Shown piece after piece: positions 838-12,369 of a stretch of DNA of 44,947 nucleotides (position 1 is the stretch's first letter; each line of letters opens with the position of its first letter). The notes below the pieces were generated by a model, which saw only the letters and a list, made by a program, of their open reading frames with translations, did not search any database and was not told the origin of the DNA. Made by a program: the position numbers and the translations under genes. This stretch comes from Planctomycetia bacterium (GTDB lineage Bacteria > Planctomycetota > Phycisphaerae > Phycisphaerales > SM1A02): positions 1 to 44,947 of the forward strand of contig SXUI01000014.1 in NCBI GenBank assembly GCA_005790605.1, written 5' to 3'.

Positions 838-1992
838 TTACTTCGCGGCGCCTGCGCCGCCGATGAACTTGCCCTTCGCGTCGAACTGATCGAGGTTCTT
901 CATCATGCCGATGATGGCATCGATCGCCCTGTCGTTGAGTTGACCCTTGAAGGTCGGCATCACGTTGCCGAAAGGCACAACGATGTGCTCGCCCGGATTC
1001 AAGATCGAGTTGCGAACATACGACTCGGGGTTTTCGAATGCCTTCCCTGGGCCGATGAGCGAGGCGTAAGTCTCGCGGCCGTTGTCGAGCTTGCCATCGG
1101 CGCCCGCCCCACCCGACACGCGCGCCCACAAGCCTTGCCAGGTCGGGCCCGTGCTCGAACCGCCATTGAGCGTGTGGCACGACGCGCAGCGTCCGAACAA
1201 CTTCGGGCCCGCAACTTGCCAGAGTTCGTCACCCTTGAGCTCGTCCATCCATCGACCCTGCTTGTCGAGCCAGAGATCAAAGTCTGCTTGCGGAAGCGCA
1301 AAGACCTTCGCGTGCATCTTCGAGTGATCCTTGCCGCAGTACTCCGCGCAGAACAAGTGGTGGAACTTCTGCTTCGATGGATCTGCGTCGTTCCACCCTT
1401 CGGTGACATGGTCGGTTTGGAACCACAGCGTGGAATACCGACCCGGAACGACATCCTTCTTCACTCGGAATGCGGGGATGTACACCGCGTGGAGCACATC
1501 CTCCGAACGCATCACGAGCTTGACCGGTCGGCCGACCGGCACATAGAGATTGGAATCCGCACTCGCCGCACCCGTTGGGTAGCGGAAGTTCCAGAACCAC
1601 TTCTGACCCGTCACATCGATTTGATAAGCGTTCTGCGGCGGCGTCGAAAGGTCGATGAACCCGCGGAACCCAAACCAGAACATGAAGACGCAGAGAATTG
1701 TGGGGATGATCGTCCAGCCGAGCTCGAGCATCGTGTGGTGCGCCGGACCGCGCGCGTAGACCTCACGCCCCTTCTGGCGATACTTGATCGCGAAGTAGAT
1801 CATGAGACCGATGACGAGCACGAAGAAGAAGTAGCTGATCCACGCGATGAACTGGAACGCAAAGTCGACCTGTGGAGCGGCCGTTGACGCGCCCTCGGGC
1901 AACCAAAAATCCGCGGGACTGATAGGCACACTCGTCGAGAGCGCAGCCTGACCTTGAGATTCGGAATTGGCCTGAAGCAGAAGGTGAATCAT
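838..1992 (-). CDS. coxB: cytochrome c oxidase subunit II with C-terminal cytochrome c domain (caa3 type)
   Basis: Electron entry subunit of the oxidase. From the ATG at 1992 it has 384 residues: an N-terminal stretch, two membrane helices (about 45-68 and 92-113), a CuA cupredoxin domain and a fused cytochrome c. CuA ligands are visible: His168 in VLHAVYIP, then CAEYCGKDHSKM with Cys215, Cys219, His223 and Met226. The haem-binding CASCH is at 269-273 and a candidate Met ligand lies in NVMPTFKG. The fusion marks a caa3-type enzyme that takes electrons from a cytochrome c or directly from the neighbouring complex. The frame also opens upstream with a TTG at 2025 overlapping the SCO stop. I prefer the ATG because the 11 extra residues resemble no family sequence, but neither start has a good ribosome binding site. 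Confidence 0.95.
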   Translation of the reverse strand: MIHLLLQANSESQGQAALSTSVPISPADFWLPEGASTAAPQVDFAFQFIAWISYFFFVLVIGLMIYFAIKYRQKGREVYARGPAHHTMLELGWTIIPTILCVFMFWFGFRGFIDLSTPPQNAYQIDVTGQKWFWNFRYPTGAASADSNLYVPVGRPVKLVMRSEDVLHAVYIPAFRVKKDVVPGRYSTLWFQTDHVTEGWNDADPSKQKFHHLFCAEYCGKDHSKMHAKVFALPQADFDLWLDKQGRWMDELKGDELWQVAGPKLFGRCASCHTLNGGSSTGPTWQGLWARVSGGAGADGKLDNGRETYASLIGPGKAFENPESYVRNSILNPGEHIVVPFGNVMPTFKGQLNDRAIDAIIGMMKNLDQFDAKGKFIGGAGAAK

Positions 1993-2021
1993 GGATCGAC
2001 TCGGTTCAAACTGAATGACAA

Positions 2022-2891
2022 TCAAACAGACGCGTGCGCAGTTGAGTGTGGCTCGACCGCGCGACCCTGACCTTGCAATCGCTCACGACGCCAGAAGTAC
2101 ACAAGACCGCTCGCGACAACAACGAGCGTGAGCGCGCCTGCAAGCTGCATGACACGCATGGCCCCCACCACATAGCTTCCCGCGTTCGGGTCATAGACAT
2201 GGCACCAGAGGATGAATCGGTCGAGCGTCGAACCGATCTTTCCTTCGGATGCCTCAAGCAGCGCCATTCGGAGCTGCGGTGGATCAAACTTCGTTCCGTA
2301 GATATAGCGACCGACCCGCCCATCCGGCGTGATCACGAAGATCGCGGCCGCATGCGCGTAGTCACCATTCTCTTGCCGGCGATACTCAAAGCCGACTGCG
2401 TCTGCGATCGCCTTTGAGGACTTCGCACTTCCGGTGAGGAAATGGAACCCTTGCGCCGCGCCAGGCCGCCCGTACTCCGCGACATAGCCTTCCTTCTTCG
2501 CGCGAGCAAGGTCAGCGGTCTCGCTCGGATCGATCGACAGGCAGATGACCTCGTACTCGTTGCCGATGCTCCAATCGAGCTCAGTGAACGCATCGACCGC
2601 GCCATTGAGTACAAGCCCGCAGAGCATCGGGCACTTCATGTATCCAATCTGGAGAACAACCGGTCGCTCTCGCTTGAAGTAGTCCGCCAAGCGCACGCTC
2701 TCGCCCGCCTCATTGGTCAGCGCAGTCTCGAGGGGGAGCGTGGCATCGAGATGCTCCACGATGTCCACGCCCTTCAGCTCGGCAGGAACATCGCCGTTCA
2801 GCTGTGCCTCAGCCCCATTGACAAGGCACAACGCCGCGCCCAAGGCGACGATCGAAGTGCATTGCGTGAAGATGGAACGAGAAACGAACAT
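2022..2891 (-). CDS. SCO1/SenC-family copper chaperone
   Basis: Thioredoxin-fold protein that delivers copper to, or keeps reduced, the CuA site of oxidase subunit II; it acts outside the inner membrane. 289 residues from an ATG at 2891. An N-terminal hydrophobic stretch (about 10-29, ending in NGAEAQ) looks like a signal peptide. The copper motif is CPMLC (Cys87, Cys91), with the partner His180 in DYAHAAAIF. A C-terminal membrane helix at about 246-267 followed by WRRERLQ anchors it, which is less usual than the N-terminal anchor of mitochondrial Sco1. It lies between a small membrane protein (10 bases upstream) and coxB, as expected for a dedicated CuA assembly factor. The family is certain; copper delivery is inferred from the family and the context. 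Confidence 0.92.
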   Translation of the reverse strand: MFVSRSIFTQCTSIVALGAALCLVNGAEAQLNGDVPAELKGVDIVEHLDATLPLETALTNEAGESVRLADYFKRERPVVLQIGYMKCPMLCGLVLNGAVDAFTELDWSIGNEYEVICLSIDPSETADLARAKKEGYVAEYGRPGAAQGFHFLTGSAKSSKAIADAVGFEYRRQENGDYAHAAAIFVITPDGRVGRYIYGTKFDPPQLRMALLEASEGKIGSTLDRFILWCHVYDPNAGSYVVGAMRVMQLAGALTLVVVASGLVYFWRRERLQGQGRAVEPHSTAHASV

Positions 2892-3270: not shown

Positions 3271-4623
3271 TCAGGCGTTTTCAAACGAGAGTGATTCATG
3301 CAGACGAGGATCGCGCGCTGGAACGAGCGAGCGACCCTGGAGGTACGCAACCGATCCCGCAACGACGAGGCTGAGGACCCCGAACGAGAGGAGGTAATTC
3401 AAAGGATTGTCGAGGCCATTCGATTGCGTGCCATACTTCGCGACGAGGTCGCCATAGGTCGCGAACGAACCAATGTCGCTTGGAATCTCAGGCATCACGA
3501 GCCAGTACAGATCGATCCAGTGACAGCAGAGCATCCACGCCGCGGCGATCGCGAGTGAGACTCCGTATCGCTTTGGCCATCGGCTGATCATGCCCACGAA
3601 TGGGATGACGAAGTGCCCGAAGAGGAGCATGAGAGTGACGGGGAGCCAACCGCCGACTTGGCGCGTGAGGAACCAACCGGTTTCTTCTGGGAGATTCGCG
3701 TACCAAATCAGCATGTACTGGCTGAATCCGATGTAGGCCCAGAACACCATGCCGAAGGCGAAAAGCAGTTTGCCCAAGTCTTGAAGGTGCTCGCCGCTCA
3801 CGATGCCGGAGAGGAACCCCCAGCGCTTCAATCGAACGGTGATGAGTGCCAACGATGCGTACCCGCCTGTCACGCAACCAGTGAAGAAGTACACGCCGAA
3901 CATTGTGGAGAACCACGCGGGCGAGAGCGACATGATCCAGTCAACGGCCGCGAAGGTAGTCGTGAGTCCAAACGCGATCGCCGCCGGGCCAGACCATTTC
4001 TGCATGGCGTAGGTACGGCACATCGCTCCGTCTTGATCTTGCTTCGTGCTCTGGTTCGTGAAGAACCACGCGAGCAGTCCCCACGCGGCGAAGTACACCA
4101 CTGCACGAATGAGGAAGAAATTCGCATTCAAGAATGCGACCTTCTTCTCGACCACATGCGCCATGCCTGGGTCATTCGCCTCAAGAGTGGCCATGTCAGC
4201 CCAAGGGAAGAGCGTTCCCGCCGTGCCGTTGAAGAACATCCACAGCACTGGGATGAAGAGCAGCCAAATCCACTTCAGGTTCGATGCGAGCGCTTCGGCC
4301 GGACGACGCACGGCGACACTCCAGCCTGCGCGTGTCAGGAACTGAATGATGACGAAGAACAAACCACCAAGGCAGATCGTGAGCCCAAAGAGGAAACTCA
4401 CGAGATACATCTTCCAGAAGGTCCGCGCATCGGTCTCAAACGCGCCGGTCTTTCCGAGGTAGACGCCTGCGCCAAGGCAGACAATCCCGATGCCGACCGC
4501 CGCATTGCGGAGCGTGAGGCTACCAGGACCCAGTTGGGTGTTCTTGGGAGAGAGATCTGCGTGCGAAGCGTGACTCATGAAATCAGTCTTTCGTTTGAAG
4601 CGCGCCCAACGGTGCGCTTCCAT
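3271..4623 (-). CDS. actF: alternative complex III quinone-binding membrane subunit ActF
   Basis: Large integral membrane subunit of quinol:cytochrome c reductase (ACIII), paralogous to ActC/NrfD proteins and proposed to take part in quinol binding or proton movement. 450 residues from an ATG at 4623. A second ATG at 4578 (MSHASHADLSP) would give 435 residues and leaves out a basic, non-family N-terminus, so it may be the true start. About ten hydrophobic segments are visible, starting with LRNAAVGIGIVCLGAGVYLG, with family-like stretches such as FFNGTAGTLFPWADMA, CHWIDLYWLVMPEIP and FGHFVIPFVGMISRWPK. It follows actE by 11 bases (or 56 with the later start). No cofactor motif is expected and none is seen. 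Confidence 0.9.
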   Translation of the reverse strand: MEAHRWARFKRKTDFMSHASHADLSPKNTQLGPGSLTLRNAAVGIGIVCLGAGVYLGKTGAFETDARTFWKMYLVSFLFGLTICLGGLFFVIIQFLTRAGWSVAVRRPAEALASNLKWIWLLFIPVLWMFFNGTAGTLFPWADMATLEANDPGMAHVVEKKVAFLNANFFLIRAVVYFAAWGLLAWFFTNQSTKQDQDGAMCRTYAMQKWSGPAAIAFGLTTTFAAVDWIMSLSPAWFSTMFGVYFFTGCVTGGYASLALITVRLKRWGFLSGIVSGEHLQDLGKLLFAFGMVFWAYIGFSQYMLIWYANLPEETGWFLTRQVGGWLPVTLMLLFGHFVIPFVGMISRWPKRYGVSLAIAAAWMLCCHWIDLYWLVMPEIPSDIGSFATYGDLVAKYGTQSNGLDNPLNYLLSFGVLSLVVAGSVAYLQGRSLVPARDPRLHESLSFENA

Positions 4624-4634
4624 TCAAGCGTGGC

Positions 4635-5318
4635 TTACTTCAGAAGTGGAAGATCCTTGCGACGTTCCGGTGGCACATCTTGGGTGGTCGCGTTCTGTGA
4701 TCGTTGCAGCGCCTGCACATAACAGGCGATTGCCCATCGATCGTCGGTCGTAATCTGTCCTTGATATCCCGCCATGTTGCGGATGCCATTCGTCGCGACA
4801 TTGAAAATCATGCCGAGTCGATGTTCGCGAATCAGTGGGTCATGCAAGCTCTTCGCCGCAACCCACTTGGTTCCCATGACTGGACCATTGGTGTTCGACA
4901 TCAGCGCCATGGCGCGTTGGTTCACAATCCCATCGCCGTAGCCCGCGTAACCGTGGCATGCCGAGCAATAGATGTTGTACCGCTGCTGACCGCGAGCAAT
5001 GAATGCGTCGGTCAGCTGCAACTGCGACGGCAAACTGTCGGCCCAATCACCTTGCACCGCGCCTTCCCAGTAATGCGTGTCATCGTAGGTTTCGCCACGA
5101 GCCACGCTTCCTTCGACAGCCGGCCGCATCGCGCGATGATCTGCGAAGAGGGGATTCTTCGTCTGCGTCTTGAACTTCGGTTGGAAGTCCATGTCTTGAA
5201 AGATATGCACGGCGCGATTTGCATCCGGCGTCGCACGAACACGTGCGATGATGGTGAATGGCAAGACCGCGGCGACGGTCGCGAGAAGAGCTAGAAATAC
5301 GAGCCAGCGTGGGGGCAT
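4635..5318 (-). CDS. actE: alternative complex III monohaem cytochrome c subunit ActE
   Basis: Monohaem cytochrome c of ACIII that passes electrons from the pentahaem/Fe-S part towards the oxidase. 227 residues from the ATG at 5318, which has a strong ribosome binding site (GGAGG, six bases upstream) inside the end of actD; the frame also opens at a GTG at 5351, which lacks such a site. An N-terminal helix (about 5-25) anchors or exports it. The haem motif is CSACH at 118-122, followed by GYAGYGDG. A Met in NGIRNMAGY is a plausible sixth ligand. It starts 2 bases after the actD stop, so the two are translationally coupled. Confidence 0.93.
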   Translation of the reverse strand: MPPRWLVFLALLATVAAVLPFTIIARVRATPDANRAVHIFQDMDFQPKFKTQTKNPLFADHRAMRPAVEGSVARGETYDDTHYWEGAVQGDWADSLPSQLQLTDAFIARGQQRYNIYCSACHGYAGYGDGIVNQRAMALMSNTNGPVMGTKWVAAKSLHDPLIREHRLGMIFNVATNGIRNMAGYQGQITTDDRWAIACYVQALQRSQNATTQDVPPERRKDLPLLK

Positions 5319-5319
5319 G

Positions 5320-5919
5320 TCAGTCCTCCACCGCTTCGACCGCACTTGCACCGAGGGTACGAAGGAAAGCCTCCGTAGAGCCGCGCAAGAATTTTGGGTC
5401 GCGTGCCTCGATCACAACGAAGAAACGATCGTTCGTTGCTCGACGGAAGCGGTTGTTCTGTAGGAGTGGGTGGTAGAGCCGAGGAAGTCCGTTGAAGAGG
5501 AACATCAACCCCACACAGGAGAGTGCGGAGAAGAGCACCGTCAACTCGAACATCACCGGGATAAACGCCGGCAAACTCATCATCGGCTTGCCGGAGATCA
5601 GGTACGGGTAACCAGTCACCTTCACGAGAGCCCAGGCAGGGAACCCAAACGAGTTGGTGAAAGTCTGCAACGCGAATGCGGCGGCAGTGCCCGTCGCGCC
5701 CGCGCCGAACACGAAGAAGGGAAGCCAAGTGCGCTTCACGCCCATCGCTTTATCGAGTCCGTGCACAGGGAAAGGCGTACAGCAGTCCCACCAAATGAAT
5801 CCAGCATCGCGCACCTTCTCGGCGGCGTGCATGAGGTCGTGCGTATTCTCAAACTCCGCGATGAGTCCGTAGACCGGACGGCGCGAGGCAGGAGACGGTG
5901 CATGCGAAACGGCGGACAT
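5320..5919 (-). CDS. actD: alternative complex III membrane subunit ActD (DUF3341)
   Basis: Two-helix membrane subunit of ACIII. 199 residues. The N-terminal soluble part has the family pattern YGLIAEFENTHDLMHAAEKV and the conserved TPFPVHGLDKAMG at 48-60. Two membrane helices follow at about 66-87 and 117-142 and pack against ActC/ActF in the known complexes. The ATG at 5919 overlaps the actC stop (TGATG), so translation is coupled. No cofactor motif is seen or expected. Confidence 0.92.
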   Translation of the reverse strand: MSAVSHAPSPASRRPVYGLIAEFENTHDLMHAAEKVRDAGFIWWDCCTPFPVHGLDKAMGVKRTWLPFFVFGAGATGTAAAFALQTFTNSFGFPAWALVKVTGYPYLISGKPMMSLPAFIPVMFELTVLFSALSCVGLMFLFNGLPRLYHPLLQNNRFRRATNDRFFVVIEARDPKFLRGSTEAFLRTLGASAVEAVED

Positions 5920-7376
5920 CAGTGTGCGCTCCCATGCTTGGCGTGACCATGCGCATGCGCGTGATCAGGGTTGTGCGGATCTGCTGCGGGCATGACGGCC
6001 TTCACTTCAGCCATCGCAATCATCGGAAGGAAACGGCAGAACAAGAGGAACAGCGTGAAGAACAGCCCGAATGCGCCGAGCATCGTGCCGATGTCGACCC
6101 AAGTCGGCGTGAACTGATCCCACGAACTCGGGAGGAAGTCGTTCGCAAGGCTCGTCACGATGATGACGAATCGCTCAAACCACATGCCGACATTCACGAC
6201 GATCGAGAGGACGAACATCATCGGGATGCTGGTGCGCATCTTCTTAAACCAGAAGAGCTGCGGCGTGATCACATTGCAGCTCACCATGATCCAGTATGCC
6301 CACCAGTACTGACCGAAGGCGCGATTCACAAATGCGAACTTCTCGAAGGCTGCGCCGGAGTACCACGCGACGAAGAACTCCATCGAGTACGCATAACCCA
6401 CCATGCAACCGGTCGCGAGAATGACCTTGTTCATGTTGTCGAGGTGGCGCAGCGTGATGAGATCCTTGAGTCCGAAGAGCTCGCGCGCAGGAACCGCAAG
6501 GGTCAACACCATCGCGAATCCGCTGAAGATGGCGCCCGCGACGAAGTACGGCGGGAAGATGGTCGTGTGCCAACCGGGAAGTTGGGATGTGGCGAAGTCG
6601 AACGAAACGACCGAGTGCACCGAAAGCACGAGCGGAGTCGAGAGCGCTGCGAGGATGAGGTATGCGCGCTCGTAACGATGCCAGTGTCGATTCGAACCGC
6701 GCCATCCGAGGGCGAAGAGCCCGTACGCGAACTGCTGCAGTTTGCCCTTCGCGCGATCGCGAAGCGTTGCGAGATCTGGAATCATGCCCGTGTACCAGAA
6801 CACGAGCGAAACAGTGAAGTAGGTACTCACTGCGAAAACGTCCCAGAGCAATGGCGAGCGGAACTGCGGCCACATGTCCATCTGGTTGGGAATCGGGAAG
6901 AGCCAGTACGCGAACCACACGCGACCGACATGGATACCTGGGAACAGACCGGCGCAGATGACTGCGAAGATCGTCATCGCTTCCGCGAATCGATTGATGC
7001 CGGTGCGCCACTTCTGGCGGAAGAGGAACAAGATCGCGCTAATGAGCGTTCCTGCGTGACCGATACCGACCCAGAACACGAAGTTCGTGATGTCGAACGC
7101 CCACATGACAGGGTTGTTGAGGCCCCAAACACCGACACCGGTGAAGATGAGGTAGGAGACGCAGAATCCGAGGAATCCGAGTACTGCGAGCGACAATGCG
7201 AAGGCGATGTACCACGCCTTCGGAGCGCGACGCGCTTCCGCGACACGACACACTGTCGTGGTGACCTCCGCGAAGGTCGTGAGATTCAAGACCAACGGCG
7301 CGCGTGTTCCTGGCTCTTCGACAGTGTTGTCGATGACTTCAGCGGCGTGCGTGTGAGAAACGGGAAGCGTGCTCAT
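5919..7376 (-). CDS. actC: alternative complex III quinone-binding membrane subunit ActC (NrfD family)
   Basis: Integral membrane subunit of the NrfD/PsrC type that holds the quinol site next to the Fe-S protein ActB. 485 residues from an ATG at 7376 that overlaps the actB stop (ATGA). About ten hydrophobic segments are visible; family stretches include [57 protein letters not shown] and [18 protein letters not shown]. The C-terminus is His-rich ([17 protein letters not shown]), which may bind metal loosely but is not a known functional motif. It lies between actB and actD, the usual order. Confidence 0.94.
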
Positions 7377-10300
7377 GAATGCGCCTCGTGCGAAGCCGCT
7401 GAACTATGCGAGTCAGTCGAGTCATGGCCTGTGCCATGGCCATGATCATGTGCGTCGGCGCCATGCTCGATCGCTGGATTCCAAACGCGCGCGAGATACT
7501 TCAAGCGCGGCTTCGTATTGAGTTCATCAAGAAGTCCATAGCTGCGCGGGCCCTTCTGAGCCGCGGCTACTTCGCTCGTCTTCACATTGAGATCGCCAAA
7601 CACGATCGCGCCAGTCGGGCATGCCTCTTGGCACGCGGTCTGGACGGTGCCATCAGCAATCGCCCACTCAGGCGCGCCTTCCACACCGCCCTGCTTCGCC
7701 CACGCATTCTTCGTGTTGATGCGGGCGTCTTGGATGCGCTGCACGCAGAAGGTGCATTTCTCCATGACGCCGCGCGTGCGCACAGTGACATCAGGATTGA
7801 ACTGCATGCGTGGCCACTCGTTGGGACCTTCGGAGGTGTAGTACTCGGGCTTGGTCATGAAGACGCCGCCCTCTCGCACTGGCTCGCGTCGATGCCAATC
7901 GAAGAAGTTGAAGCGACGAACCTTGTATGGGCAGTTGTTGCTGCAGTAACGGGTACCGATGCAACGGTTGTAGACCATCGCGTTGAGCCCTTGCTCATCA
8001 TGCACCGTTGCCGCGACGGGGCAAACTTGTTCGCACGGCGCGTTCTCGCAATGCATGCACGCGATCGGCTGCACCGCAAAGCCGCTTGGCTTGGCCGGAT
8101 CCGATCCGCGGAAGTAGCGATCAACACGAATCCAGTGCATCTCTCGACCGCGAGCGACTTGATCCTTACCCACGATCGGCGTGTTGTTTTCAGCTTGACA
8201 TGCTGTCACGCACGCGCTGCAGCCGGTGCACGAGGCCAAGTCAATCGACATCGCCCAGCGGAACTTCGCGCCCGCGAGATTCGATTCATCCCACAACGAG
8301 AGCGTGTGCGGGACATGGTTCGCATGCGCTGCAAATCCAGGCTCGTGCTGGTATGTCGCGAGCGACGCGCTACGCACGAGCGCAGGCAGACGCTCCTGAA
8401 TGCCAGACTCTGGAACCTTCGGATCGAGTGCATCAATCGCACCGTGATCTTGTGTGTGCGCGAAGGCGTAGCGCTCGGAGGTCTTCGTGATGCCAGCAGT
8501 ACGGGTGAAGTAGGGCTCGGTCGACGACTGCAATTGATACGAGTTGAAGCCCGCATCAGCAGCAATCTTGCCCGCAACCGCAGATCGTCCATACCCAAAT
8601 GCAATCGAGGCGCAGTCATCGGGATGACCAGGCACGATCCAAGCAGCAACCTTCAAGTCACCGCCCGCGACCTTGACTTCAAGCACATCGCCGTTTGCCC
8701 AACCCTTTGCGCTCGCGGTCGTCGGCGAGACGAGAAGCGCATTGTCCCAAGTGATCTTGGTGATTGGATCGGGCAACTCCTGCATCCATGCCATGTTGGC
8801 GAGACGCCCATCGACCATCTTGTTGTCGAAGAAGAAACTCACTTCGAATCCATCACCAACGCGCGACGCTGCTTGTGCGATTGTCGATGCAACTGGTGCT
8901 GCAGCAATCGTCGCAGTCGCCGTCGATGGCACGAAGCCCGCGTCGAGATTCGTGCGCCAGTACTTCTCAAACTCCGCGCCCGACAGCCCGCACATCGCGG
9001 TATGCGTGCGACGGACGATCGAGTACGCATCCTTGAGCGCGTCACCGGTGAGTTCGGCGAGCAATTCAACGGCGTTCTTGCCGCCCTGCGCTTCATCCAT
9101 CATCGGAAGAATCGTCGGCTGCCCCAGCACGATCGAACCATCCCACGCGCGGCCGTCGAACCAATTCTCGAGCGCATGGCACGCGGGAATGTGCCACGAA
9201 CTGAGCGCGGTCGTTTCATTCGCGTAGAAGGAGAGGTGAACAACCTCGGTGGCCTTCTTGATCTTCGCACCAAAGCCGAGATCTGCCGGCGCGTCATACG
9301 CAGGATTGCTCCCGAGGATCACAAGCGTCGAGACCTTGCCATCGCCAAGTGCACTCGCGAGTGACGCAAGCTGCGTCGTCACCGGCGCGCCGGTCGAGCT
9401 CGCACGGTACGCCGCGGCTGCGCTCTGCAATTTCGCATTGATTGATGCGGCAATCGCGTGGCATGCAGGATCCGCAGTGCGGCCCGCAAACACAAGCGCG
9501 CCCGCGCCAGCCTTCGCAAGATCCTTTGCCAACTCGGCAAAGACTTCTTTGCCGTGCGCGTCCAAGATGTGGTCCGCAGCACTGCCCGAAAGAAGTGCAT
9601 CCGCGCCCGACACACCAAGTTCCTTCGCGACCATCGCCGCAAAGACTGCGACTTCGCTCGGGCGCATCGTGAATCGCTCATCCGCACTCAGCCCAGTCAC
9701 GCTCAGTGTGCTCTCCGCAACATAGAGGCGACTCATCTCTTGCTTGGACGGATCAGTGTTCGCGATCCTGCGACCCTTCGCCCAATCACCGGCGAACTTC
9801 ACACCCATCGCGGCGTCATTGAGCGGATCTCCGTCGAGCACGAGCATGACGCTCGCCTTCGAAAAATCAGGTGTCGCGACCGCGCCTGTTCCGGCAATCG
9901 AAGCGTCGTCATTCGCCGCGCCCCACCAGGTCCAAGTCGCCTTCGGATACGCCGTCGCGAAACGCGACTTCATGTCGGCAAGGGTTGGCGATGCAGAGAG
10001 ATCGCAAAGCACTGCGAGGCCCTCACCGCCGTTGCCGCTCCAAGTCGCGCGGTTCGTGGCGCACCACTCCGCGAATGCTGCGTAGTTCGACGGTGCCTGC
10101 CCGCGACTCGCGCTTCGGCTGCGATCGGTGTCATACAACTCAAGGATGCGCGCCTGCGTGGAAGGCATCGACGCGCCTGCGCCTGCGAAGAGACGGTTGC
10201 CGTCGAGCTTGACTGGACGACCATCAAAGGTCTTCGCAACCGCGGGCTGCGCCACACCCCAAGTTTCGACCATCGTGGCGTAAGGGACGGGGACCCCCGC

Positions 10301-10600
10301 CGTACGGTTCTTCTGCGCAGCGGCAAATGGAACAATCTTCGCCTCTGGAATGCGGCGGCACGCAGCCAAGCCAGCAAGCGCGAAGCTCGCGCCCATCACC
10401 TTAATAAACGTGCGTCGATCATCGCCGGCAGCAAGCTCCGCAGCACCTGGCGAGAACTCGCGCGCCATGAGTTGCTGAAACTCCTCGGCGTGCGAAAACT
10501 CTTCGAGGCTGCGCCAGAACTCTGGAGCGGCGGTGCGCGCATGCGCATCGAGAGTCGTGCCTTGGGGAGCGCATCCTGTGTCGTTCTTCTGCATCGGCAT
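7373..10600 (-). CDS. actB: alternative complex III iron-sulfur subunit ActB (Mo-oxidoreductase-like domain fused to ferredoxin domain)
   Basis: Peripheral Fe-S subunit of quinol:cytochrome c reductase. 1075 residues from the ATG at 10600; the frame also opens upstream at a TTG (10687) that overlaps actA. A twin-arginine signal is visible ([10 protein letters not shown], Arg62-Arg63) with a lipobox at LAGLAAC (Cys81), so the protein is probably Tat-exported and lipid-anchored. The large middle part (about 110-750) resembles the molybdopterin oxidoreductase fold, which in this family carries no molybdenum cofactor. From about 785 there are four cysteine clusters: [35 protein letters not shown] and CTFC...CQEAC. 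These match the [3Fe-4S]/[4Fe-4S] set of NrfC-like proteins. ActB1 and ActB2 are fused here, as in many ACIII operons. Confidence 0.95.
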
Positions 10601-10665
10601 TCCGTTTCGTCTGATCAGTTCGTGTTCGGTGGCGCGCGATGAGGCGCGCGGCTTGGGATTCGCGC

Positions 10666-11319
10666 TCAGCGGTGGCAGGTCGTGCAATTCTCACTCGGCG
10701 CGATTTGGAATTTCGCTTCGAGTTGGGTTTGTGCGTCGAGCCCCAAGTCCTTCGCTGGATCGAGGCGCATGTTCGTGACATCTGCGGGCGATCGGAGATT
10801 CGTGACTGGATCGCGATGGCACTCCAAGCACCAACCCATCGAGAGTGGTGCGTGTTGGTAGACAACTTCCATCTTGTCGATGCGTCCGTGGCATGTGGCG
10901 CAACCAACGCCACGCGTGACATGCGCCGCATGATTAAAGAAGGCAAAATCAGGCAGTTTGTGGATGCGCGTCCACTCCACCGGCATACCCGTCAGATTGC
11001 TGTCATTCAGCTTCGCGAGCTTCGGCGACTCGGGGCGAATCGTCGTGTGGCAGTTCATGCAAGTCTGCGTGACGGGAATCGAAGCGCTCGCGCCCCGATC
11101 AACGCCGATGTGGCAATAGCGGCAATCGAGTCCAAGTTGTCCCGCGTGCAACGCGTGGCTGAACGGAATGGGTTGCGTTGGCTGATAGCCCGCATCGAGC
11201 GTCTTGGGGCTGAATCCGTACGCGACAAAGTACGCCGCGTAAAGCGGCATCGTCGCGCCAACAAGGATGATCACCGGCAGAAGAAGATTGGACCAGCGAG
11301 GGAAGGAGAACCTACTCAT
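10666..11319 (-). CDS. actA: alternative complex III pentahaem cytochrome c subunit ActA
   Basis: Pentahaem cytochrome c, first gene of the operon. 217 residues from an ATG at 11319 with GGAG-like purines just upstream (TCTCCTTCC on the plus strand). One N-terminal helix at about 10-32 exports and anchors it. Five CxxCH motifs are visible: CRYCH (66-70), CMNCH (87-91), CATCH (140-144), CLECH (164-168) and CTTCH (212-216). Extra histidines in FSHALHAG and FNHAAHV are likely bis-His partners. The protein forms the electron wire between ActB and ActE. Its start is 120 bases from the palindrome in the divergent control region. Confidence 0.95.
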   Translation of the reverse strand: MSRFSFPRWSNLLLPVIILVGATMPLYAAYFVAYGFSPKTLDAGYQPTQPIPFSHALHAGQLGLDCRYCHIGVDRGASASIPVTQTCMNCHTTIRPESPKLAKLNDSNLTGMPVEWTRIHKLPDFAFFNHAAHVTRGVGCATCHGRIDKMEVVYQHAPLSMGWCLECHRDPVTNLRSPADVTNMRLDPAKDLGLDAQTQLEAKFQIAPSENCTTCHR

Positions 11320-11577
11320 GCGAGATCAACTCGAGGGGATGCAAGCGGAATCCAAACACCATCGCGCGCGCGACGCTGACGCAAACGCACTCGGCTTCGC
11401 GCAGAAAAATATGTCCGCGACGCAGCCAACAACACAAGTTCGTGAAATATTTCACGAATTCGATCGCGACAGTCTAAATGCACAAGCGCCATCGGTCAAC
11501 GGGGGAAACAATCCTGATGAGTTGTCGGAGGTTACCACCACGAACGCGTGCGAGTGATCGGCTAATCTCGGCCCGCC
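11320..11577. other. divergent control region between actA and tatD
   Basis: 258 bases without a gene. It should hold the promoters of the respiratory operon (minus) and of tatD-tatC (plus). Visible signals are a perfect 20-bp palindrome at 11439-11458 and, on the minus strand, an AT-rich CATATT/TATTTT box at about 11406-11413. A weak TTGTGT lies 18 bases before that box at 11433-11438. If that box is the -10, transcription would start near 11400 and leave a leader of about 80 bases before actA. No riboswitch-like fold was recognised. The promoter boxes are inferred by eye. Confidence 0.5.
11439..11458. promoter_or_regulatory. perfect 20-bp palindrome, probable regulator operator of CRP/FNR geometry
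   Basis: The left arm TTCGTGAAAT is followed directly by its exact reverse complement, giving 10+10 bases without a loop. The core reads GTGA-N6-TCAC, the spacing recognised by CRP/FNR-superfamily dimers (TGTGA-N6-TCACA). The centre is 130 bases upstream of the actA start and 129 bases upstream of the tatD start. Relative to the candidate actA promoter it would lie near -45, close to a class II activator position. The symmetry is seen directly; the regulator family is inferred, and no CRP-type gene lies in the window. Confidence 0.65.
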
Positions 11578-12369
11578 GTGACCGACTCCGTCGACCTCAT
11601 CGATACACATTGCCACCTCACCTTTCCGGAATTCAGCGGGCGTGTCGGAGAGGTCCTCGCGAACGCTTCGAGAGTTGGAATCCGTGGCGCGATCACGATC
11701 TCTACCTCGACCTCGAATGCACGGGAGTGCTTAGCGCTTGCGAAGTCCCACGACAACCTCTGGTGCTCCGCCGGAGTGCACCCTCTCTACTGCGACGAAC
11801 CCTGCGAGTGGAGCGCTCTTGGCGAGGTTGGACGGGATGCGAAGTGCATCGCTTGGGGGGAGCTGGGACTCGATGCGTTCCACTCCAAACCTCCTATAGA
11901 ACAACAACTTACGGTGCTTGAGGACCAACTCGCCGTGCTCGAGGGACTCCGTGGGGATGGGCTCGAAAAGCCCGTGGTGATTCACTGCCGCGACGCGTTC
12001 GATCGACTCATTCCGATCCTTCGGGCCTGCACCCTACCGGCCCCGAGATTCGTCTTTCACTGCTTCACGGGTGGGCCTTCCGAAATGCGCGCCCTTCTCG
12101 ACTTCGGTGCGATGGTGAGTTTCACTGGCGTCCTTACCTATAAGAACGCGAGGGCGACGCAAGAGGCGGCCCTCCTTCCACCGGCGGATCGGATCATGGT
12201 GGAAACCGACTCCCCATTCCTCTCGCCAGAACCGCATCGACTGATCCGGCCGAATGAACCTCGATATGTCACTCATGTCGCTGACAAACTGGCTGACCTC
12301 CGTGGCGTTAAGCACGGAGTGATGCGTGCGCAGCTTGCTGCGAACTGCAAACGATTCTTCGGAATCTGA
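11578..12369 (+). CDS. tatD: TatD-family metal-dependent DNase
   Basis: TIM-barrel metallohydrolase of the TatD family, known as a 3'-5' DNA/RNA exonuclease and deoxyribonuclease in the cytoplasm. 263 residues, close to the usual 260. Metal and active-site residues are in place: His11 and His13 in DTHCHL, Glu95 in GELGLD, His136 in VIHCRDA, His161 in HCFTG and Asp211 in ETDSPFL. GVHP at 66-69 is also present. The start is a GTG directly before TDSVDLIDTHCHL; no ATG is available nearby. It lies 63 bases before tatC. The classical tatABCD grouping explains the name only; TatD is not needed for Tat export. Confidence 0.93.
   Translation: MTDSVDLIDTHCHLTFPEFSGRVGEVLANASRVGIRGAITISTSTSNARECLALAKSHDNLWCSAGVHPLYCDEPCEWSALGEVGRDAKCIAWGELGLDAFHSKPPIEQQLTVLEDQLAVLEGLRGDGLEKPVVIHCRDAFDRLIPILRACTLPAPRFVFHCFTGGPSEMRALLDFGAMVSFTGVLTYKNARATQEAALLPPADRIMVETDSPFLSPEPHRLIRPNEPRYVTHVADKLADLRGVKHGVMRAQLAANCKRFFGI

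Follow-up and report, generated by a model that had tools for sequence, protein, structure and literature searches.

Operators of the repressor Rex are the closest described counterparts of the site analysed here. Passages of the Streptomyces avermitilis study (PMC5355995) place Rex operators (ROP) at cydA1, nuoA1 and atpI and report that Rex protects positions -3 to +25 at cydA1. The consensus TTGTGAANNNNTTCACAA is given in excerpts of PMC5317091 and PMC5355995. According to sections of PMC8836258 and PMC5355995, NAD+-bound Rex sits on the DNA and is released by NADH. For Thermotoga maritima Rex, sections of PMC8836258 assign the roles of the DNA-contact and sensor residues and state that E34, S52 and R60 vary within the family, whereas K43 does not. 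ACIII replaces the bc1 complex in many bacteria, as the abstract of PMC8552683 also states. Rex and ACIII are both mentioned in PMC5317091, whose passages on Rex discuss it for a hydrogenase cluster. Among the titles and abstract openings listed in our literature searches, we found none that ties Rex, or any regulator, to an ACIII operon.

Here we report a palindrome upstream of a planctomycete ACIII-oxidase operon that is very probably a Rex operator, through which the operon would be repressed at high NAD+/NADH. The computed basis comprises the symmetry, uniqueness and conservation of the palindrome, its spacing from the promoter, the presence of a complete Rex, the failure to find a CRP/FNR protein, co-occurrence of the site with rex, further respiratory targets in relatives, and joint variation of operator and protein. 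Rex operators are already known as a kind; the ACIII-oxidase operon is a predicted new target.

The actA-tatD intergenic region

The window, by which we mean the whole stretch of 44,947 nucleotides analysed, carries the ACIII-oxidase operon and, divergent from it, tatD (Table 1). The operon proteins are relatives of Qrc and Dsr subunits, mostly under the cut-offs of those models. The name actA rests on the initial annotation and on gene order, and gene order is also what we take as the basis for naming actD, actE and actF; among NCBIfam models, actE has weak cytochrome c matches, and actD and actF have none. At the midpoint of the 258-base gap between actA (ATG at 11319, minus strand) and tatD (GTG at 11578) lies TTCGTGAAATATTTCACGAA, which, as the initial annotation had described it, consists of two exact 10-base arms with the core GTGA-N6-TCAC. 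No other perfect palindrome of 20 bp or longer occurs in the window. In 40 first-order Markov simulations, such palindromes averaged 0.05 per window, and 2 of the 40 contained one. By this measure a 3-Mb genome should hold about 3, so symmetry cannot settle the matter on its own.

Table 1. Features of the ACIII-oxidase operon and its upstream region (minus, -; plus, +; no strand,.)
Feature	Position	Strand	Basis
coxB, cytochrome c oxidase subunit II	838-2025	-	TIGR02866 over cut-off for 841-2025
SCO1-like gene	2022-2891	-	by eye
actD (5320-5919), actE (4635-5351), actF (3271-4623)	3271-5919	-	open frames
actC, DsrP-like membrane subunit	5919-7376	-	below cut-off
actB, molybdopterin-type and iron-sulfur subunit	7373-10687	-	QrcB/QrcC-like below cut-off; TAT-variant molybdopterin domain over cut-off
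actA, multiheme cytochrome c that opens the ACIII operon	10666-11319	-	QrcA-like, below model cut-off
Rex operator (predicted)	11439-11458; 24-bp motif 11437-11460	.	palindrome TTCGTGAAATATTTCACGAA, motif, conservation, matrix score
ACIII-operon promoter (predicted)	11471-11499	-	TTGACC (11499-11494), 17-base spacer, TAGACT (11476-11471)
tatD, divergent	11578-12369	+	TatD-family match, just below subfamily cut-off

Elsewhere in the assembly, which totals 3.03 Mb in 80 contigs and is 99% complete, the 20-mer has no match at up to 3 mismatches. When the window's genome was aligned with three genomes of the same genus, the palindrome and the promoter stood out as conserved blocks, whereas the rest of the intergenic region had diverged; in G002 one central base of the palindrome differs. 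This conservation is stronger evidence for the palindrome than its symmetry. Both the genome-wide search and the alignment of actA upstream regions had been proposed in the initial annotation, and the outcome, a single-copy 20-mer conserved in relatives, is the reverse of the two findings that it had named as speaking against an operator: lack of conservation and copies scattered through the genome.

The predicted promoter ends at 11471, 12 bases from the palindrome. Promoter-like pairs numbered 1 against 0.1 expected in shuffles, and the promoter is kept in four genomes of the same genus, G002 having TAGAAT. The usual distance from a -10 box to the start is 7 bases. Transcription of actA would start near 11464, which would place the operator at about +7 to +26.

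A shared motif, the Rex protein and their joint variation

ActA was found in 137 of the 151 genomes of the order. Upstream stretches were taken for 110 of the 137 and not for 27, and after G063 and G043 had been dropped (contig end), 108 regions were analysed. Expectation-maximisation from random 24-mer seeds yielded ACTTTGTGAAAAAANGCACAAANT or shifted versions of it, also written TTTGTGAAAAAANGCACAAA, with an estimated 68% of the regions occupied. Using a symmetrised matrix trained on the same 108 regions that it scored, 73 of the 108 reached a score of at least 15; with the unsymmetrised matrix, the maximum in shuffled regions (one mononucleotide shuffle each) was 13.2. The palindrome scored 33.7, as compared to 6.3 at the next best place in the window. 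Named loci gave a similar picture (80 fetched, 79 with usable upstream sequence), 60 of the 79 scoring at least 15, but the named and unnamed sets share some contigs and their counts are not independent. The motif was absent from the loci titled Myxococcales, Omnitrophota or Acidobacteria (L396, L402-L404). By sequence comparison, the actA motif is close to the published Rex consensus. The consensus of 42 sites is ACTTTGTGAAAAATTTCACAAAGT, from which the window's site departs by T to C in each arm; passages of PMC5355995 show the same C variant in the S. avermitilis hppA site, TCGTGAATCAATTCACGA.

A promoter-like match was detected for 66 of the 73 sites (110 bases before and 90 after were searched). 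In 63 of these 66, counted without a shuffled control, the best match has 17-25 bases, most commonly 22, between the end of its -10 box and the operator centre downstream. With the usual 7-base distance, this spacing has the operators cover about +5 to +25, a location typical of repressors. Between operator centre and start codon, the sites have 14 to 233 bases. Judged by the predicted promoters, the operator follows the promoter of a respiratory operon, as is expected of a Rex operator.

The initial annotation had also raised shared control of tatC. Of the 80 named loci, 40 have a tatD match upstream of actA, two of these matches being partial at contig ends; 18 point in the same direction as actA and 22 are divergent. 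The site (score at least 15) is present in 15 of the 18 and in 20 of the 22, respectively. Control of tatC is thus unlikely, since the site keeps upstream of actA whichever way tatD points, and we rejected tatD and tatC as targets. The tatD-actA linkage itself (40 of the 80 named loci, L329-L408, in either orientation) is conserved for no obvious reason.

The Rex DNA-binding domain, PF06971, is encoded in 94 of the 151 genomes of the order, with one copy in the window's genome. The latter protein matches PF06971 and PF02629 over cut-off and NCBIfam NF003995 with 238.6 bits (cut-off 126), and is a complete Rex repressor. Its gene lies in G000:C46 near 67.5 kb, away from the act operon. The protein matches eight distinct solved Rex sequences, the best being T. 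maritima Rex (4.7e-48, residues 3-203). Of the 12 DNA-contact residues of T. maritima Rex, R12, S33, Q46, R48, K49, G58, G61 and Y64 are kept and four are changed (E34 to R, K43 to T, S52 to G, R60 to P). The sensor residues Y100 and D191 are kept as well; K120 of the NAD pocket is V. No site scoring at least 15 was found in the 31 rex loci scanned for autoregulation (94 genomes have rex), and among the rex loci looked at, G120 is the sole case with a site before rex (L263). The own rex gene (L002:1414-2139) and a long minus-strand frame that is in part metF-like (named by eye) diverge and overlap where the latter begins, and there is no Rex site near rex.

The presence of the site follows that of rex: 70 of 78 genomes with rex have the site, compared with 3 of 30 without (Fisher 3e-15). 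Within the family of the window's genome the counts are 67 of 72 and 2 of 8, and at genus level 39 of 46 and 2 of 20 (majority rule, ties counted as present). These tests, like those of covariation below, treat genomes and genera without tree correction. A site in the absence of a detected rex is clear in G013 (74% complete) and G054 (88%) and borderline in G132 (score 15.0); rex without the site occurs in G020, G021, G022, G023, G056, G102, G106 and G120.

Operator and protein also vary together. Operator base 5, which precedes GTG, is T or C in the family of the window's genome; at the equivalent place of the operator, sections of PMC8836258 describe a contact of the T. maritima wing residue Arg60 with Thy4. 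In the 67 readable genomes, Rex with P60 and no R62 goes with C in 9 genomes and T in 38, as compared to C in 16 and T in 4 when residue 60 is not P or residue 62 is R. This association gave p 4e-6 by genome and 3e-4 by genus (C in 7 of 8 against 4 of 28 genera), for a grouping, not P at 60 or R at 62, that was picked after the data had been seen; the genome test skipped G044, G071 and G074 and the genus test the tied genera g25 and g36. The 6 genomes with R62 belong to two genera, and all of them pair C in one arm with G in the opposite arm, as do 9 of the 61 others. Within g35 and within g36 the change is joint, S60 or A60 standing with C and P60 with T. Exceptions are g14 (G053) and g39 (G069), where T accompanies S60, and also g25 and g34, in which the operator base changes and residue 60 is constant.

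Proposed repression by Rex and alternative readings

If the palindrome is a Rex operator, each winged helix of a Rex dimer would hold one half-site in the transcribed stretch immediately downstream of the actABCDEF-SCO-coxB promoter, and the bound protein would keep RNA polymerase from initiating or from escaping. A rise of NADH relative to NAD+, through too few terminal acceptors or excess reductant, would release Rex in its NADH-bound form, and the quinol:cytochrome c oxidoreductase and the oxidase would be made. Binding, repression and the NADH response at this palindrome are what we infer from the Rex family.

Another dimeric repressor co-inherited with Rex, of Rrf2, MarR or TetR type, might bind the palindrome instead. 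Many partial HTH matches fall in frames of about 140-180 amino acids, the size of Rrf2 proteins, and the site at L163 lies before an Rrf2-like gene (named by eye). However, the consensus is that of Rex, the operator varies along with the wing residues of Rex, and nuo and atp are known Rex targets elsewhere, as sections of PMC5355995 indicate. We consider such a repressor improbable.

A CRP/FNR-family activator binding GTGA-N6-TCAC was the reading of the initial annotation. This core is common to CRP sites, and PF13545 is matched at E <= 0.001 in 133 of the 151 genomes, 56 of them over cut-off, most of the matches listed being partial. In the window's genome, however, PF00027 has 0 matches (11 of 14 control genomes were positive) and PF13545 has two at E <= 0.001, the best of which (24.0 bits, 27-61 of 70) is partial and under cut-off. 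Matches to PF13545 above 45 bits, covering nearly the whole domain, occur in 10 of the 151 genomes, two of which belong to the window genome's family. CRP/FNR proteins activate from centres near -41.5 or -61.5, whereas the predicted geometry puts the operator centre at about +15, downstream of the promoter and in a repressor-type position. Because no cNMP-binding domain was found in the window's genome and its best CRP-type HTH is partial and below cut-off, a CRP/FNR activator is very unlikely, and together with the position of the site this led us to reject it.

An RNA hairpin in the 5' leader, serving as attenuator or stability element, is conceivable because the palindrome lies within the predicted transcript, whose start puts it in the leader; it is also flagged as terminator-like on the minus strand, and pairing covariation was 0.168 against 0.143 in shuffles (reached by 32 of 500). 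We nevertheless hold a hairpin or terminator to be highly improbable. Terminator-like sites number 1, with 0.6 expected. In the 42 of 73 sites tested for pairing, 88.9% of cells are paired against 88.0% in shuffles, pairs changed on both sides number 1 against 1.3, and 20 of the 42 break pair 9-16. A symmetric operator predicts equal slight covariation, and base identity is what stays constant.

For a Rex operator, a broader proposal can be made, which in our judgement could fall either way: in the Phycisphaerales family of the window's genome, Rex would now be the switch of the ACIII-oxidase operon, this operon would be its chief or only strong target in the window's genus, operator and wing would have co-evolved (T to C with P60 to A or S, or with R62), and one redox sensor would set the aerobic chain by NADH demand. 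The question of ACIII regulation becomes testable through a repressor that can be named, an exactly placed operator, the geometry of the promoter and a position in the protein that varies with the operator. The results suggest that planctomycetes of this group may set the amount of their oxidase chain by the NADH/NAD+ ratio.

Further sites and comparison with known systems

The initial annotation had linked the palindrome to the ACIII-oxidase operon and to respiratory genes in general. The first link is borne out by the conservation of the site across relatives, and the second by motifs before nuo, atp and cta genes of relatives, which were searched by exact pattern and by profile, with at most 87 first-look candidates scored per genome. 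The motif precedes nuoD (L173, Pfam-confirmed; L182 and L238, by eye), nuoG (L250, Pfam-confirmed) and the pair nuoJK, which ends in nuoK (L237, Pfam-confirmed). It also precedes an atpI-like ATPase gene 1 homologue (L233, Pfam-confirmed; L258, L264 and L266, by eye) and atpD (L220, Pfam-confirmed; L227 and L176, by eye). Furthermore, it adjoins a ctaA-like gene (L254) and a ctaB-like gene of the UbiA family (L240), both Pfam-confirmed, and lies between oxidase genes near cox3 in L262 (Pfam-confirmed). A ResB-like reading at L268 had no Pfam confirmation. Chance may account for several of the relatives' sites, which fall within open frames or beside unrelated genes. A phylum-wide profile search, in which at most 32 candidates were scored per genome, picked out 10 of 246 genomes at E <= 0.02, the window's genome and G098 included. 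Three of the 11 phylum loci read (L410, L411 and L412), from other families, have the motif between nuo-like and nadA-like genes (by eye), an arrangement that would tie NADH use to NAD synthesis.

In the window's genome, the profile search returned the actA site (E 9e-4) and a weak match at C39:32426 (E 0.15), and no further strong site among the 150 of 451 candidates scored. Classical targets therefore give no support there, and since the profile searches scored part of the candidates, this absence is not proof. At up to 1 mismatch, GTGAANNNNTTCAC has 131 matches in this genome against 80 for the reversed control; exact matches occur at seven places, of which one is the palindrome and the other six score at most 6.5. 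At up to 2 mismatches, TTYGTGANNNNNNTCACRAA has 57 matches against 29; those examined were four other 1-mismatch places.

Several other sites were observed. The weak match (L251, G000:C39:32426-32445) is the Rex-like site TGTTTGTGAATCATTGCACGATCC before an elongation-factor-G-like gene, and its counterpart in G003 (L252), one base different, precedes the same type of gene; an exact match to the search pattern stands at C81:28109 of G003 as well. In the window's genome, CATTCGTGCCATTTGTCACAAACC (L189, G000:C59:18414-18433; matrix score 22.8), absent from the profile-search report, directly follows an fbp-like gene and precedes a further frame on the minus strand (names by eye). Two species of one genus have Rex-like sites before a prepilin-type (FTIVELL) gene (L232 in G004, score 32.2; L222 in G048, score 26.2). 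In G071, ACTTTGTGATTTTTTTCACAAAGT (L162, C27:19796-19815; score 35.3) lies away from actA.

We compared the locus with three described systems. The menaquinone reductase Qrc of Desulfovibrio (cited in PMC4215793) is a relative of ACIII, and its subunits are related to those encoded here, which fall below the Qrc cut-offs. T. maritima Rex (PDB 5zz5 and 7wb3; sections of PMC8836258) resembles the Rex of the window's genome in having both domains, in 89 of 202 identical alignment columns, in 8 of the 12 contact residues and in Y100 and D191; it differs in that the protein described here has R for E34, T for K43, G for S52, P for R60 and R for V62. The Streptomyces ROP, as described in passages of PMC5355995, share with the sites found here the consensus TTGTGAANNNNTTCACAA, respiratory operons as targets and, at cydA1, protection from -3 to +25. 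In contrast to them, there is no rex autoregulation here in the 31 rex loci scanned, outer AC..GT is common, the second half-site is often GCAC, and the target is the ACIII-oxidase operon.
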